DNA of 29,862 nt from a virus: positions 1 through 29,862 of IMG/VR virus record IMGVR_UViG_3300025112_000117. The stretch is one strand, 5' to 3'. A model generated the notes under the pieces. The model did not search any database. It was not told the origin of the DNA and worked only from the letters and a program-made list of their open reading frames with translations. Positions within the stretch are counted from its first letter, which is position 1; the number at the start of each line of letters is the position of its first letter. This document shows, one piece after another, positions 1 to 15,866 of this stretch. The position numbers were made by a program, and so were the translations under genes.

Positions 1-506
1 TGGAGCAGTCTGGTGCTCGGGGTGATCGTCTTCTTTTTCTCCCTGCGGTGCTGCTCCCAGTCTTCCCAAGCCTCTCTGAATTCGTCGGTGTCGAACGCAG
101 TATCTATGTTATTCTTCCTTAGATACTCTTCAGTTATAATAGTAGGGTGCAGATTCTGCAGGGGTACCCCGGCAGTTTCTGCAGGGGTGGGGTGCAGTTT
201 CTGCAGGGGTGCAGTTTCTGCAGGGGTGCAGTTTCTGCAGGGGGTGTATACAGACGTTTTCCCGGTACGCTTTCGACGGGTAACCAACTTGCGCTTGACG
301 AGCACCTTCAGACAGGCCCTTGCCGTCCTCTCGGAACATCCGACGTCCTCGGCCAGCCGTGCTGCAGAAGGCCATGCATTGCCGCTATCATTCCTGGCGT
401 AAAGGTCAAGCCTGGCATGTAGCAGTTTGGCCGTCTGTGGCAGTGTGGCGTCTGATGCTATGTCAAGGTACATGATCATGTATGGTCTCACCGGAGGTTC
501 CGGCAT
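1..506 (-). CDS. Phage replication initiator, winged-helix type (C-terminus beyond window)
   Basis: Reading leftwards from ATG 506, the frame stays open to the window edge, giving 168 residues with no stop. Residues about 22-87 look like a winged helix-turn-helix of replication initiators: NAWPSAARLAEDVGCSERTA, then a basic wing ending KRTGKTSVYTP. Residues about 88-121 are low-complexity sequence encoded by the iteron array. After residue 124 comes a stretch typical of phage replication proteins (FDTDEFREAWEDWEQHRREK, then KKTITPST). The likely role is binding iterons in its own gene and loading a helicase, as lambda O does. A GAGG box 8 nt upstream supports the start, and the gene follows the HNH gene by 3 nt. 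The fold and role are inferred from sequence pattern. The missing C-terminus and any following helicase loader lie outside the window. Confidence 0.75.
   Translation of the reverse strand, partial: MPEPPVRPYMIMYLDIASDATLPQTAKLLHARLDLYARNDSGNAWPSAARLAEDVGCSERTARACLKVLVKRKLVTRRKRTGKTSVYTPCRNCTPAETAPLQKLHPTPAETAGVPLQNLHPTIITEEYLRKNNIDTAFDTDEFREAWEDWEQHRREKKKTITPSTRLL
101..145. other. AT-rich patch beside the iterons, candidate DNA unwinding element
   Basis: By my count only 12 of these 45 bases are G or C, in an otherwise GC-rich window. The patch lies immediately downstream of the iterons relative to the direction of the replication gene, the same order as iterons and AT-rich region in lambda ori. 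Function is inferred from composition and position. Confidence 0.5.
148..243. repeat. Five 17-bp iterons inside the replication gene (putative origin)
   Basis: Five copies of TGCAGTTTCTGCAGGGG start at 148, 171, 193, 210 and 227. Copy 1 has ATT for TTT and copy 2 begins GG instead of TG; the other three are exact. The first 13 bases of each form an inverted repeat (TGCAG-TTT-CTGCA), so each is a good dimeric protein site. Spacing is 23, 22, 17 and 17 bp. Because 17 is not a multiple of three, the repeats are read in different frames in the protein, which suggests selection on the DNA rather than on the peptide. Confidence 0.8.
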
Positions 507-6785: not shown

Positions 6786-7121
6786 ATGGGACAACGAGGC
6801 CGAAAAAGGTACGAGTCCAACATCGATGCGGAACTCTTCCGCCTGGCGCTCGGACTACTCCGGACAACCTACGCCGAAATGGCGAAGGCGTCCGGCTACA
6901 AGCTGGAGTCAGTTAAGCAAATGGCGAACGGAACCAACCCGGTAAGCCTGCGAATGGAGACCGCGCTCGCGAACATGGTCATCGGGCTGTGGAATGAGTC
7001 GGACCGGGTCCATCCGTTCCACAACCACCTGATCACCATTCGCGTAGATGGTCTCGACGTCACGGTAGTTGGCGGGAAGATCATGGGGTGCCGGACGGCG
7101 GTGTTGGGAGGTGGGGAATGA
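6786..7121 (+). CDS. HTH DNA-binding protein upstream of helicase-methylase
   Basis: A 111-residue protein. Residues about 17-60 (FRLALGLLRTTYAEMAKASG, then KLESVKQMANGTNPVSLRME) fit an XRE-like helix-turn-helix in which the recognition helix is KLESVKQMANG. The C-terminal half is beta-rich and unassigned. GGAGG lies 7 nt before the ATG. The stop overlaps the start of the helicase-methylase gene (ATGA), so the two are translationally coupled. It may regulate the unit or act as a sequence reader for the enzyme. It is not a full CI-type repressor, since no cleavage or dimerisation domain is seen. Confidence 0.65.
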   Translation: MGQRGRKRYESNIDAELFRLALGLLRTTYAEMAKASGYKLESVKQMANGTNPVSLRMETALANMVIGLWNESDRVHPFHNHLITIRVDGLDVTVVGGKIMGCRTAVLGGGE

Positions 7122-9376
7122 CTTACGAGGAGTTCATCGCAGGCAAGGCGCGGACGGTCGCCCCGTGCGGGTTGACCGACGTGCCGAAACTCAACCCAAT
7201 GCTTTTCGACTGGCAACGGGACATCGTGGCGTGGGCGCTCAAGCGCGGGCGCGCGGCCATCTTCGCGGATTGCGGGCTGGGCAAGACGCCCATGCAGTTG
7301 GAATGGGCTCGCCATGTGCCGGGCGATGTGCTCATACTCGCCCCTCTGGCCGTCGCCGACCAGACCTGCCTGGAGGCCGAGAAGTTTGGCGTGCCCGATG
7401 TCAACTATCGCCGGTCGATGGCGGATGTCACGCCGGGCATCACGATCACCAACTATGAGATGCTAGAGCACTTTGACGCCTCGGCCTTCGCGGGCGTTGT
7501 GCTGGATGAGTCGTCTATCCTCAAGGCATACGATGGCAAGACGCGAACGCGCATACTGGAGGCATTCGCGGATACTCCGTTCCGTCTGGCATGCACGGCC
7601 ACGCCAGCCCCCAACGACTACATGGAGCTCGGCAACCATGCCGAGTTCATGAGCGCGATGTCACGGGCCGAAATGCTGTCTTGTTTTTTCGTCCACGACG
7701 GAGGCGAGACGCAGAAGTGGCGGCTCAAAGGCCACGCCGGGGACGAGTTCTGGAAATGGGTATGCTCGTGGGCGGTGATGATACGGATGCCTTCGGACCT
7801 CGGGTATGCAGACGATGGCTTCGTGCTGCCGGCGCTCACAGTAGAGGACCATGTGGTCGATGTCGATCACGATCCGGCCACCACCGGAACGCTATTCGCG
7901 ATGGAAGCCAAGACGCTGACGGATCGACTCGGTGCCAGGCGTAGCACCATCGCAGAGCGGGTAGCATCGGTCGCCGCAATGGTCAACGCTACGCCGGGTC
8001 CGTGGGTCGTATGGTGCGCGCTCAATGACGAGAGCTCGTCTGTGGCGTCTGCCATCGACGGTGCCGTCGAGGTTCGCGGCTCACAATCGCTCGAAGTCAA
8101 AGAGGCAAACCTGCGAGCATTCTCGGATGGCTCGCTTCGCGTACTGGTCACCAAACCAAGCATAGCCGGGTTCGGCCTTAACTGGCAGCACTGCCACAAC
8201 GTGGCGTTCCTCGGTCTCGGTGACAGCTACGAGCAGTATTACCAGGCTATCCGCAGGTGCTGGCGATTCGGACAGACGCAGCCGGTGACATGCCATATAG
8301 TGACAGCGAAAACGGAGGCGAGGATCGTGGCGAACATCAAACGCAAGGAAGCGGACGCTACGCGCATGGCCGAGGACATGGCCAAGCACATGTCCGTGCA
8401 CAGCGCCGACATCGTCCGCGGGATGGCAAAGCCGGATAGCGCGAGCGTTTCCAGTAGCACCAAGGGCGACGGATGGGAAGCGATCCACGGGGACTGCGTG
8501 CGCGCGGTCTCGGCGATGGACTCCGACAGCATTGGGTACACGATCTTCTCGCCCCCGTTCGCCTCGCTCTACACCTACACCAATCTCCCCGAGGACATGG
8601 GGAACTGCAACAATTATACCGACTTCTCGGAGCACTTCGCCTACCTGATTCCAGAGTTGTTCCGCGTGACCATGCCGGGTCGGTTACTGTCGTTTCACTG
8701 CATGAACACTCCGACGCTCAAAAGCCGCGATGGCTTCGTGGGCCAGCGCGATTTCCGAGGCGAACTCATTCGCATGTTCGAGGCCTCCGGCTGGATCTTC
8801 CACAGCGAAGTATGCATCTGGAAAGATCCGGTCACGGCCATGCAACGAACGAAGGCGCTCGGGTTGCTGCACAAGCAGGTTGTCAAGGACAGCGCCATGT
8901 CGCGGCAAGGGATCGCCGACTATCTGGTCACCATGCGCAAGCCGGGAGACAACCCGGTCCCCGTGTCGGGCGAACTGTCCACGTTCGTCGGTGACCCGGC
9001 TACGTTCAAGCCGACCGGGCGCCTGAGTATTGACATCTGGCAACGGTACGCCAGCCCAGTGTGGATGGACATACGCCCATCCAGGACACTGCAATACCGT
9101 TCCGCGCGGGACCACAAGGACGACCGGCACATCTGCCCGCTCCAGTTGGACGTAATAGAGCGAGCCATGCAACTATGGTCCATGCCCGGGGATCTGGTGC
9201 TGTCGCCTTTCATGGGAATTGCATCCGAGGGCCATGTCGCGGTGACGACCGGGCGCCGGTTCGTGGGAACCGAACTGAAAGACTCATACTACCGGCAGGC
9301 GGTGAAGAACCTACGCATAGCCGAACGCGAGGCGGGCGAGGGCATGTTGTTCACAGCCGAGGAGATGGCACAATGA
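7118..9376 (+). CDS. SNF2-like helicase fused to DNA methyltransferase
   Basis: A 752-residue fusion. The N-terminal half is an SF2/SNF2-type ATPase: FADCGLGKT (Walker A, 49-57), VVLDESS (DExx, 127-133), CTATPAPND (motif III, 159-167), VTKPSIAGFGLNW (motif V region, about 344-356) and QAIRRCWRFGQTQP (motif VI, 376-389). The C-terminal half is an amino-methyltransferase of the beta arrangement: SPPF (478-481, catalytic) precedes the SAM-binding SPFMGIASEG (696-705). SPPY/F motifs are usual for N4-cytosine or N6-adenine enzymes. One chain could thus move on DNA and methylate it, protecting phage DNA. ATG 7118 overlaps the stop of the HTH gene and has GGGAGG upstream; an earlier GTG is unnecessary. 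No nuclease domain is seen. Confidence 0.9.
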   Translation: MTYEEFIAGKARTVAPCGLTDVPKLNPMLFDWQRDIVAWALKRGRAAIFADCGLGKTPMQLEWARHVPGDVLILAPLAVADQTCLEAEKFGVPDVNYRRSMADVTPGITITNYEMLEHFDASAFAGVVLDESSILKAYDGKTRTRILEAFADTPFRLACTATPAPNDYMELGNHAEFMSAMSRAEMLSCFFVHDGGETQKWRLKGHAGDEFWKWVCSWAVMIRMPSDLGYADDGFVLPALTVEDHVVDVDHDPATTGTLFAMEAKTLTDRLGARRSTIAERVASVAAMVNATPGPWVVWCALNDESSSVASAIDGAVEVRGSQSLEVKEANLRAFSDGSLRVLVTKPSIAGFGLNWQHCHNVAFLGLGDSYEQYYQAIRRCWRFGQTQPVTCHIVTAKTEARIVANIKRKEADATRMAEDMAKHMSVHSADIVRGMAKPDSASVSSSTKGDGWEAIHGDCVRAVSAMDSDSIGYTIFSPPFASLYTYTNLPEDMGNCNNYTDFSEHFAYLIPELFRVTMPGRLLSFHCMNTPTLKSRDGFVGQRDFRGELIRMFEASGWIFHSEVCIWKDPVTAMQRTKALGLLHKQVVKDSAMSRQGIADYLVTMRKPGDNPVPVSGELSTFVGDPATFKPTGRLSIDIWQRYASPVWMDIRPSRTLQYRSARDHKDDRHICPLQLDVIERAMQLWSMPGDLVLSPFMGIASEGHVAVTTGRRFVGTELKDSYYRQAVKNLRIAEREAGEGMLFTAEEMAQ

Positions 9377-14483: not shown

Positions 14484-14885
14484 TCACCCCTGTGGTACGT
14501 ATTCGAGTTTCGCGGGGCTGGCCACGTGGACCGTTCCCACTCCTGTCGTGGTCAATGTGGCGGACAGCACCATGCGGATGTCCAGCCCGCGTTCTTTCGC
14601 CTCTGGGAAGGCGTACCAGAGCTCCAGCACGTTCGCCCCGGTGACGGAGATGGACCCGGCGAGATTGTTGTTGGCATCCAGCGTGATCGAGTGCCCCGCC
14701 TGTGTGGTGCTCGCGAAGATGGTCGTCCCGTGCCAGAGCCTGAAAATGTACGCGCCTGCCGGGTAGTGATTGGTCACTGTGACCGCTGCCGAGATCGTCA
14801 AGTCGCGCAGGTCGCCATACCGCCAAAGGTCGTTGGCTTCCAGGCGGCCGGGGGTCTGATGCTGGGTTATCGCGATGGTACTCAT
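14484..14885 (-). CDS. Beta-rich virion/tail protein (133 aa)
   Basis: The protein contains LRDLTISAAVTVTNHYPAGA, YIFRLWHGTTIFASTT, SITLDANNNL and VHVASPAKLEYVPQG, a beta-sandwich type of pattern. The start lies one base after the upstream stop; the only ribosome site is a weak AGGG. A 31-nt motif shared with the region before the connector and portal genes lies directly upstream (14886-14916). No known family. Probable structural component of the tail tip or fibre by position. Confidence 0.65.
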   Translation of the reverse strand: MSTIAITQHQTPGRLEANDLWRYGDLRDLTISAAVTVTNHYPAGAYIFRLWHGTTIFASTTQAGHSITLDANNNLAGSISVTGANVLELWYAFPEAKERGLDIRMVLSATLTTTGVGTVHVASPAKLEYVPQG

Positions 14886-14916
14886 TTTACCCTATGCCCA
14901 AAACGTCAACCGAGGG
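14886..14916 (-). repeat. 31-nt motif, copy A
   Basis: On the minus strand this begins CCCTCGGTTGACGTTTTGGG and ends GTAAA. It matches copy B (24950-24980) at 25 of 31 positions, including 12 in a row (GGTTGACGTTTT). Copy A sits at the end of the 114-residue gene, against the start codon of the next gene. It could be a regulator site; as a promoter it would be misplaced for the gene that starts at 14885. Confidence 0.4.
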
Positions 14917-15231
14917 TCCATTCTCAAGCATGGCGATCTTGCCCCGCTCTATGATGGCGAGTCTCTGCCGCTTGGCCATGGCGCCACACAGGGCGCCTGC
15001 TGCGACCGCTGTGTTGATGGCATCGGCAAGCATGATACCGAACTCGTCGCCCGCGTCTCCCATGGCCTCGTATGCGGCGGCGAACGCCTCGACCAGTGCC
15101 GAGTCCTCTGCATCTGAACAACCGCACGGGCGGTGCTCGGGCATGCCGGTCATGGGGCCGCCGGGTTGCGGAGGCGCGCCCTTGGGGCCGCCGTGACCAA
15201 ATCCACCCACTCCCATAAACTCTGGCATCAT
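14887..15231 (-). CDS. Hypothetical protein, Gly/Pro-rich N-terminus (114 aa)
   Basis: The start ATG 15231 overlaps the stop of the upstream gene (ATGATG/TGA); the longer frame to 15390 is rejected. The first 40 residues are Gly/Pro/His-rich (GVGGFGHGGPKGAPPQPGG) and flexible. The rest is helical: SALVEAFAAAYEAMGDAGDE and IMLADAINTAVAAGALCGAM. A RPCGCSD element precedes the helices. No family recognised. It lies among the tail-tip genes and might be an adaptor or assembly protein. Confidence 0.6.
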   Translation of the reverse strand: MMPEFMGVGGFGHGGPKGAPPQPGGPMTGMPEHRPCGCSDAEDSALVEAFAAAYEAMGDAGDEFGIMLADAINTAVAAGALCGAMAKRQRLAIIERGKIAMLENGPSVDVLGIG

Positions 15232-15866
15232 GGTCCGACGTCCGTTCCTGAGATCCCTATCCGGTCTGGGAAAAACGCCTTGGTCTTGAACTTGTCGGCC
15301 TCGGCCTTGGAATTGTGTGGTCCAGACGTGAACGCGAAGCTCGTGATCTGTACCGGCTTGGACCCGTAGCCCGTGGCCGTGATGCTGCACACGCTCGTGT
15401 TGCTCACCAGTAAACGATCAGAACTCAGGTCTCCGTCTACGAAGAGCCAGCCGTTGGCTGTCGCTGGAAAACCTGTGTTGTCCACCAACGTGCTGGTGAT
15501 AAAAATGAACTGAACCGTCTGGAGTTCGCTTTCCACGAGGCAATACCGTCGAGGCAGTTTCGATGTCAACTCGCCCGGTTCCCCGTCGCAATTGGGATAC
15601 ATGGCTCCCCAACGCCGGATGGTCAACCATTGCTCGTCAACGAAGTAAAAAAATGGCCACTCATACGGGCGCACCCAGTCGATGCGCTCGAAGATGGGGC
15701 ACGGGTTGATCGATAGGTTGATGCCTGCCCGGTTGTGCGCCGATGCGTTGCCGTCGTTCCAGCCGAGACCGGCCGCGAGCGTAAACAGCCGCTCCATTCT
15801 GCTACTGTGAACCGTGAACAGCGGTCCCTTCTGCTTGTAGAGCTTCAGGTGCGCGCCTGGGTTCAT
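15228..15866 (-). CDS. Tail-region protein, aromatic-rich (212 aa)
   Basis: ATG 15866 overlaps the upstream stop as ATGA, so the frame to 15974 is not used. The protein is rich in Trp, Tyr and Phe: DWVRPYEWPFFYFVDEQWLT, RRYCLVESELQTVQFIFITS, then GWLFVDGDLSSDRLLV. This reads as mostly beta structure, fitting a tail-tip or baseplate-like component. It has SAHNRAGINLSI near residue 45, which is echoed in the small gene upstream (VAYNDNGINLSL). No distal-tail or central-fibre family can be named. Confidence 0.65.
   Translation of the reverse strand: MNPGAHLKLYKQKGPLFTVHSSRMERLFTLAAGLGWNDGNASAHNRAGINLSINPCPIFERIDWVRPYEWPFFYFVDEQWLTIRRWGAMYPNCDGEPGELTSKLPRRYCLVESELQTVQFIFITSTLVDNTGFPATANGWLFVDGDLSSDRLLVSNTSVCSITATGYGSKPVQITSFAFTSGPHNSKAEADKFKTKAFFPDRIGISGTDVGP

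Follow-up and report, generated by a model that had tools for sequence, protein, structure and literature searches.

A probable replication origin of lambda layout inside an HTH_36 initiator gene, and the class of phage iterons to which it belongs

Why should a phage gene contain, within its coding sequence, five copies of a 17-bp repeat that occurs nowhere else in the record? The question is raised by the left edge of the IMG/VR virus record IMGVR_UViG_3300025112_000117, of which we analysed positions 1 to 29,862 (hereafter the window, 29,862 nucleotides in length). The gene is read on the minus strand and encodes a putative replication initiator, and an original prediction had taken the repeats for the iterons of a lambda-type replication origin. 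We hold with high confidence that this is so: the sequence points to the replication origin of a tailed phage, laid out as in lambda within the gene of an HTH_36 initiator and equipped with an iteron family of its own. The initiator very probably binds the iterons within its own gene.

The repeat TGCAGWTTCTGCAGGGG occurs at positions 148-164, 171-187 (with one mismatch), 193-209, 210-226 and 227-243. No further copy with two mismatches or fewer was found anywhere in the 29,862-bp record, and 100 dinucleotide shuffles produced zero matches at up to one mismatch. Read in gene direction, on the minus strand, iterons 1 to 3 (227..243, 210..226 and 193..209, all CCCCTGCAGAAACTGCA) stand in tandem, and the remaining two, iteron 4 (171..187, CCCCTGCAGAAACTGCC, the copy with one mismatch) and iteron 5 (148..164, CCCCTGCAGAATCTGCA), are spaced by 22 and 23 bp. 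The five 17-bp iterons expected inside a winged-helix initiator gene are thus present and unique in the record. Each had also been described as an inverted repeat, which is exact for four copies, with perfect 5-bp arms TGCAG/CTGCA, but not for the copy at 171-187, where one arm position is broken. The starts of the iterons fall in codon phases 2, 1, 0, 1 and 0. Hence, as expected of repeats that cross reading frames, one repeated DNA encodes different peptides (CRNC, PAETA, PLQKLHP). The best 17-mer family in the gene scores 83, whereas 40 synonymous-codon shuffles reach at most 73. We also considered a hairpin origin, given the single-strand folding of the array (z -8), and gave it no weight because a tandem palindrome folds well by construction.

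The iterons are followed, in gene direction, by an AT-rich tract (99..143, minus strand), the proposed unwinding element. It is 73.3% AT, in agreement with the 45-bp patch of about 73% noticed before, and it is the most AT-rich 45-bp window of a contig that averages 39.3% AT. The 45 bp immediately past the last iteron (103-147) have 68.9% AT, a value matched by 0.04% of all 45-bp windows.

The gene itself starts with an ATG at 506 and occupies 3..506 on the minus strand, i.e., the 5' 168 codons of an open reading frame (ORF) whose 3' end is lost at the contig edge. A continuation at the right contig end, as in a circular genome cut inside the gene, was rejected, since the frame there is unrelated by eye. 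The N-terminus of the protein matches HTH_36 in Pfam (37.2 bits for a gathering cut-off of 25, E 2.5e-9), and its best PHROG families are named replication initiation (E 5.8e-12 and 3.7e-11). An AlphaFold2 model of the protein has helices at residues 9-19, 24-36, 48-55 and 59-71 and strands at 75-79 and 85-89, with a block pLDDT (the model's own per-residue confidence) of 88-98 at residues 21-90 and of 67-75 ahead of them. From this model and VIA-align, the winged-helix DNA-binding domain would span residues 9-91 or so (codons at 234..482, minus strand), with a recognition helix at residues 59-71 (ERTARACLKVLVK; 294..332, minus strand) that includes R63 (318-320). VIA-align gave Z up to 11.6 against winged-helix chains, and by this comparison the modelled fold is a winged helix over residues 20-93, with no specific family indicated. 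Foldseek returned nothing at E 0.001 or better (best 1.2e-3), the rows displayed being largely winged-helix proteins. A search of solved structures by sequence gave none under E 0.05 for P0001, and the profile A1 retrieved general winged-helix regulators and artificial repeat proteins. Residues 91-140 form a linker modelled at low confidence (block pLDDT 59-74). The modelled helix at residues 141-159 (30..86, minus strand) opens the C-terminal domain and is nearly all of that domain on the contig. The order of the lambda O gene can therefore be followed here from DNA-binding domain through iterons and AT-rich tract to the start of the C-terminal domain, most of which lies off the contig.

Is this arrangement peculiar to one phage? 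In IMG/VR we found no close relative of the window protein, either by protein or by the exact doubled iteron, and tblastn matched only five phage records, weakly. Three of the five were examined, those of Sphingopyxis phage VSN-002 and of the Pseudomonas phages PotUPM1 and Riah, and in all three the same iteron type was present at the same place. A scan for the pattern CCCCYGCAN5TGCACCCCYGCA (short form CCCCYGCA-N5-TGCACCCCYGCA) recovered at least 120 IMG/VR stretches, and 0 with the reversed pattern as control. Hence, the search for the array in homologous genes of related phages, proposed together with the origin, was successful, mostly inside winged-helix ORFs. These contain the array in 107 of the 120 IMG/VR matches listed, or 111 of 124 once the window and L006-L008 are included. 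The 13 remaining stretches comprise seven within 45 bp of the end of the locus, four (L016, L020, L062 and L083) whose winged-helix ORF is on the strand opposite to the array and two that are satellite-like (L075 and L105). Among 64 matches in genome_contigs, 51 are inside a winged-helix ORF, one is on the opposite strand and 12 have no such ORF; most of these 12 we take as chance matches in GC-rich genomes. Judged by the titles of the records, most hosts are Alpha-, Beta- or Gammaproteobacteria; an Alistipes metagenome-assembled genome (MAG; L130) and two Actinomycetota, Sphaerisporangium (L141) and a Solirubrobacteraceae MAG (L168), are also among them. In seven loci (L016, L020, L062, L083, L217, L219 and L222), array and winged-helix gene are on opposite strands, which indicates that it can be inverted within the gene.

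To describe the class, we used 65 non-redundant loci. Their iterons follow the consensus ACCCCYGCAN5TGC, most positions of which are nearly fixed besides base 5 and N5, and number two to nine per locus. The start-to-start spacing is most often 17 bp (132 cases), followed by 22 (80), 23 (31) and 21 (29), and the starts are distributed over the three codon phases as 184, 123 and 66 of 373. The window, with five units in the linker, belongs to this class, for which at least two are needed. When the window protein is aligned with 59 relatives, P100 in the iteron-coded linker is invariant and P95, A96 and A99 are nearly so, so that this stretch of the protein seems to be governed by the DNA. Both the linker peptide (TPAxxAPPQxxHP) and the choice of codons look largely dictated by the needs of the DNA, although the conservation of motif and linker residues is partly built in, because the loci were picked by the motif.

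The AT-rich tract is also a feature of the relatives. The 45 bp past the last iteron have a mean AT content of 0.55, against 0.38 in the C-terminal part, and are the richer of the two in 58 of 59 loci. In the tract, AT reaches 0.63 at third codon positions versus 0.27 in the remainder of the gene (higher in 62 of 62 genes) and at first positions 0.52 versus 0.39 (53 of 62), whereas second positions are unchanged (0.50 versus 0.51, higher in 26 of 62). Since the excess is confined to first and third codon positions, this pattern points to selection acting on the DNA. When the 45-bp windows of each locus are ranked by AT content, the tract falls within the top 5% in 34 of 63 loci and within the top 1% in 12; in other words, it is not always the AT extreme of its locus.

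If the initiator binds the iterons of its own gene, changes in one might be accompanied by changes in the other. We scanned 468 testable pairs of a winged-helix column and an iteron position in 55 loci under 70% identity. The top pair, with z 19.2 (runner-up 8.4), joins base 5 of the iteron to residue 63, the SERxV[x] position of the recognition helix, as assigned by alignment. The 55 loci divide into 44 with Gln and C (Q/C), 8 R/T and one each of Q/T, H/C and Y/T. This pair still comes first, with z 14.4, among the 31 loci under 55% identity (Q/C 22, R/T 7, Q/T 1, H/C 1), and the 88 loci under 85% identity show the same combinations (Q/C 74, R/T 8, H/C 3, F/T 1, Y/T 1, Q/T 1). In the window, R63 goes with T at base 5 in five of five iterons. 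A lower score (z 4.8 and 4.0) was obtained for residue 64 with base 13, a pairing that we keep only as a lead. Iterons in which base 5 falls on a third codon position have C there in 182 of 186 cases when the locus has Q, and T in all 18 cases when it has R; the GC content of 73 of 75 Q loci is within the range of the R loci. Base 5 is thus not accounted for by the encoded peptide or by GC content. On a tree built without column 63, the residue changes at least six times and the base eight times. With branch support ignored and F grouped with R and Y, residue and base switch together in seven of seven independent pairs, in every one of 300 draws.

The rule was also used predictively. We recorded the expectation that T at base 5 goes with R, F or Y, and then scanned for T-type arrays, which gave 38 stretches, 18 of them new. 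In fifteen of the new ones, a winged-helix ORF covers the array or comes within 30 bp of it, and residue 63 is R in 12 of these and F, Y and Q in one each. The expectation therefore held in 14 of 15 loci, the single Q being L219, which has an inverted array, and in 12 of 12 new loci where array and gene have the same sense. The 12 new R loci are not 12 independent events, as several are close kin (SEQTVR type). L214, L215 and L229 lack a winged-helix ORF at the array (within 30 bp). The 20 T-type stretches found earlier comprise 12 with R, two with F, two with Q (L083 and L095) and four without an ORF over the array. This covariation between recognition helix and iteron supports direct binding of the iterons by the initiator.

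Because these loci were picked by their arrays, we also assembled a sample that is independent of the array, i.e., 18 diverse homologues picked from 60 evenly stepped rows of the 356 phage records obtained by tblastn with one winged-helix domain. In 11 of them, among which SfV, Vibrio 1.226.O, D14O and Pseudomonas 5400, a 17-mer family scores above all 40 synonymous shuffles, mostly with a phage-specific sequence in the linker.

Several observations weigh against our interpretation. The other seven of these 18 homologues have no 17-mer family above all 40 codon shuffles; three of the seven (L204, L207 and L209) have in-frame repeats, to which a synonymous-shuffle null is blind, two (L198 and L201) show three copies each, the case of L203 does not convince, and the homologue in Salmonella phage SI8 (L200) lacks repeats in the gene. 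The layout is thus common in the wider family, though not demonstrated for every member. As regards the covariation, only two independent pairs lie on branches with good support, a number with which a sign test cannot become significant; in these two, the base moves the same way in most pairings and the opposite way in none. There are Q/T misfits, namely L154, L095 (a mixed array) and L083 and L219 (inverted arrays), D14O pairs R with G, and the loci were collected by a pattern that allows only C or T at base 5. In the window, most of the C-terminal domain and the next gene lie off the contig. Finally, the GC-skew signal that the original prediction suggested looking for did not appear: neither the window nor either of two circular relatives, VSN-002 and PotUPM1, has a skew extremum at the initiator.

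The genes next to the initiator in relatives are of interest in this respect. We gave 20 relatives, out of the 58 with a downstream ORF called, to PHROGs. The next gene encodes a DnaB-like helicase in three, a DnaC-like loader in three, a primase/helicase in two and a P-like loader in six, with two weak loader matches and four unknown; this makes 14 of 20 with a helicase, loader or primase (16 including the weak ones), a share that is not a fair estimate because the 20 were chosen after inspecting their first residues. PHROGs 6028 and 10105, families with no known function, come directly after iteron-class initiators in L101, L019, L088 and L096, a position that suggests helicase loaders.

How might such an origin work? 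We infer binding, dimerisation, melting, helicase loading and origin activity from the sequence data. The initiator would dock as winged-helix dimers on the 17-bp iterons, which are hyphenated palindromes, and the covariation suggests that the recognition helix reads their outer bases. Several dimers would assemble into a nucleoprotein complex and melt the AT-rich tract that adjoins on the downstream side, after which the C-terminal domain would recruit a helicase or a helicase loader, whose gene stands next to that of the initiator in relatives.

Winged-helix domains are mostly those of transcription factors, and the array could instead be an operator through which a winged-helix regulator represses or roadblocks its own gene, with no replication starting there. 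Many of the nearest solved folds are indeed regulators, and the covariation is compatible with any sequence-specific binding. However, the sites are far 3' of the start codon, past the DNA-binding domain and right before an AT-rich tract, a helicase, loader or primase gene adjoins in 14 of the 20 chosen relatives, and the best-matching PHROGs are named replication initiation. We therefore regard an operator as improbable. It is still less probable that the repeats are a coding minisatellite, in which the DNA repeat is a by-product of a flexible and repetitive linker. The low model confidence over residues 91-140 (block pLDDT 59-74) and the in-frame repeats of homologues L204, L207 and L209 would fit such a linker, but a period of 17 is not a multiple of three, so that the three frames give different peptides; moreover, base 5 is constrained at synonymous positions and the AT excess affects first and third codon positions, not second ones.

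Iteron-like arrays are also used by partition systems, and the array might serve recombination, packaging or partition instead of being an origin. We consider this very unlikely, given the fixed place of the array in the initiator gene, its covariation with the gene's own recognition helix and the adjoining AT-rich tract.

How does the locus compare with known systems? According to passages of PMC5043065 and PMC7466680, the lambda origin has its layout within gene O. The annotation of the lambda record and its repeats show the likeness: hyphenated-palindrome iterons inside the initiator gene and an AT-rich tract downstream. The lambda iterons are ATCCCTCAAAACGAGGGA-like with a spacing of 20-24 bp, whereas those of the window class are ACCCCTGCAGAAACTGC at 17 and 22-23. 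Lambda O belongs to Phage_rep_O (PF04492, 5.7e-36), for which the window protein, an HTH_36 protein, has no match up to E 1. The claim that neither iterons nor protein look like those of lambda is therefore right for iteron sequence and Pfam family, but too strong for the protein as a whole, as both proteins match PHROG 678, 'replication initiation O-like' (3.7e-11 for the window protein and 1.7e-35 for lambda O). A direct profile comparison of the two is weak (hhalign E 0.066), and lambda O matched no solved structure by sequence up to E 0.1.

The RepA_N plasmids offer a second parallel. In passages of PMC5703833, the winged-helix N-terminal domain of the pSK41 initiator is described as binding boxes central in its own rep gene, the central protein segment as a linker encoded by the origin, and the C-terminal domain as contacting DnaG; the N-terminal domain of the pPR9 Rep has a putative helix-turn-helix, pfam13730 (which is HTH_36), and resembles a putative phage replication protein. 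Judging from these passages, the window gene shares with them boxes within the own initiator gene, and with pPR9 the same Pfam helix-turn-helix. In contrast, those are plasmids of Gram-positive hosts with copy control. The window protein had no RepA_N match among 12 Pfam rows up to E 1, and the chain of 5kbj, 'Structure of Rep-DNA complex', came at Foldseek rank 45 (E 8.4e-3) amid many other winged helices. Closer by N-terminal domain, also HTH_36, are SfV and the Stx-phage types Eru5/6/8/11/13: passages of PMC8951638, in whose main text the word iteron is absent, place HTH_36 proteins in five Stx-phage replication units. Gene 39 of SfV has a 17-bp family of its own, TAGTGCAGGAGATTCAC, in the same part of the gene, and its recognition helix and iteron are unlike those of the window class. 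As described in passages of PMC8263062, the initiator DNA-binding domain covaries with the origin, as demonstrated by swapping origins, in the PLE satellites (RepA and iterons) and phage ICP1 (Odn). On that account, the likeness is the covariation of initiator DNA-binding domain and origin across variants; the difference is that whole modules covary rather than one residue with one base, that the PLE origin is noncoding and that its initiator is of the RepA_N type. We met no description of the iteron class or of the residue-base rule in a literature search from whose reach subscription papers were mostly outside. The layout as such is long known, from lambda O and RepA_N plasmids, and would not surprise a specialist. 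By analogy, the window would use the same mechanism, to judge by layout, with a different initiator class and iteron family, and would add the residue-base rule.

Some arrays stand outside the initiator gene. In L105 (4139-4172), L075 (6697-6730) and L215 (9893-9917), a non-coding T-type iteron pair lies between the early region and a capsid gene, which is Pfam Phage_capsid in L105 and L075 and the same gene by eye in L215. L105 and L075 have a tyrosine integrase, L105 has a portal gene, and there are two additional repeat families at the iteron site of L105. The three loci look like capsid-encoding satellites, which might borrow the initiator of a helper phage. In L229, the array (2037-2061) is just 5' of the probable start of a 182-aa ORF, winged-helix-like by eye, which is followed by a 503-aa ORF, helicase-like by eye; here the origin is possibly outside the initiator gene.

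Regarding the phages themselves, the 20 window ORFs scanned include terminase, portal, major head and tape-measure proteins, which identifies a tailed phage. An HNH endonuclease, a repressor-like gene and a DNA methyltransferase are upstream of the initiator. On the opposite strand to it, a 762-aa ORF (7088-9376, plus strand) aligns along almost its full length with a PHROG family of DNA helicases, and DNA methyltransferase families match its C-terminal part. The record of VSN-002 (L212) annotates a telomere resolvase at 14717-15835, so this phage may persist as a linear plasmid prophage.

Beyond the window, the evidence on balance favours a large, apparently unnamed class of phage origins, with the iteron grammar ACCCC-Y-GCA-N5-TGC, that would extend from Proteobacteria to Actinomycetota. 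In this class, the residue at SERxV[x] would set base 5, with Gln giving C and Arg, Phe or Tyr giving T, residue 64 would perhaps set base 13, origin compatibility would be readable and exchangeable via a single residue, and some capsid-encoding satellites may carry non-coding iterons to borrow the initiator of a helper. One odd repeat would thereby become a recognisable origin class in uncultured phages, whose origins could be located from sequence alone. Beyond the known layout, the interest comes from how widely the class occurs and from the predictive value of the residue-base rule. The rule would give a handle on how an initiator chooses its origin, and it bears on which phages, plasmids or satellites may share an origin or compete for it.
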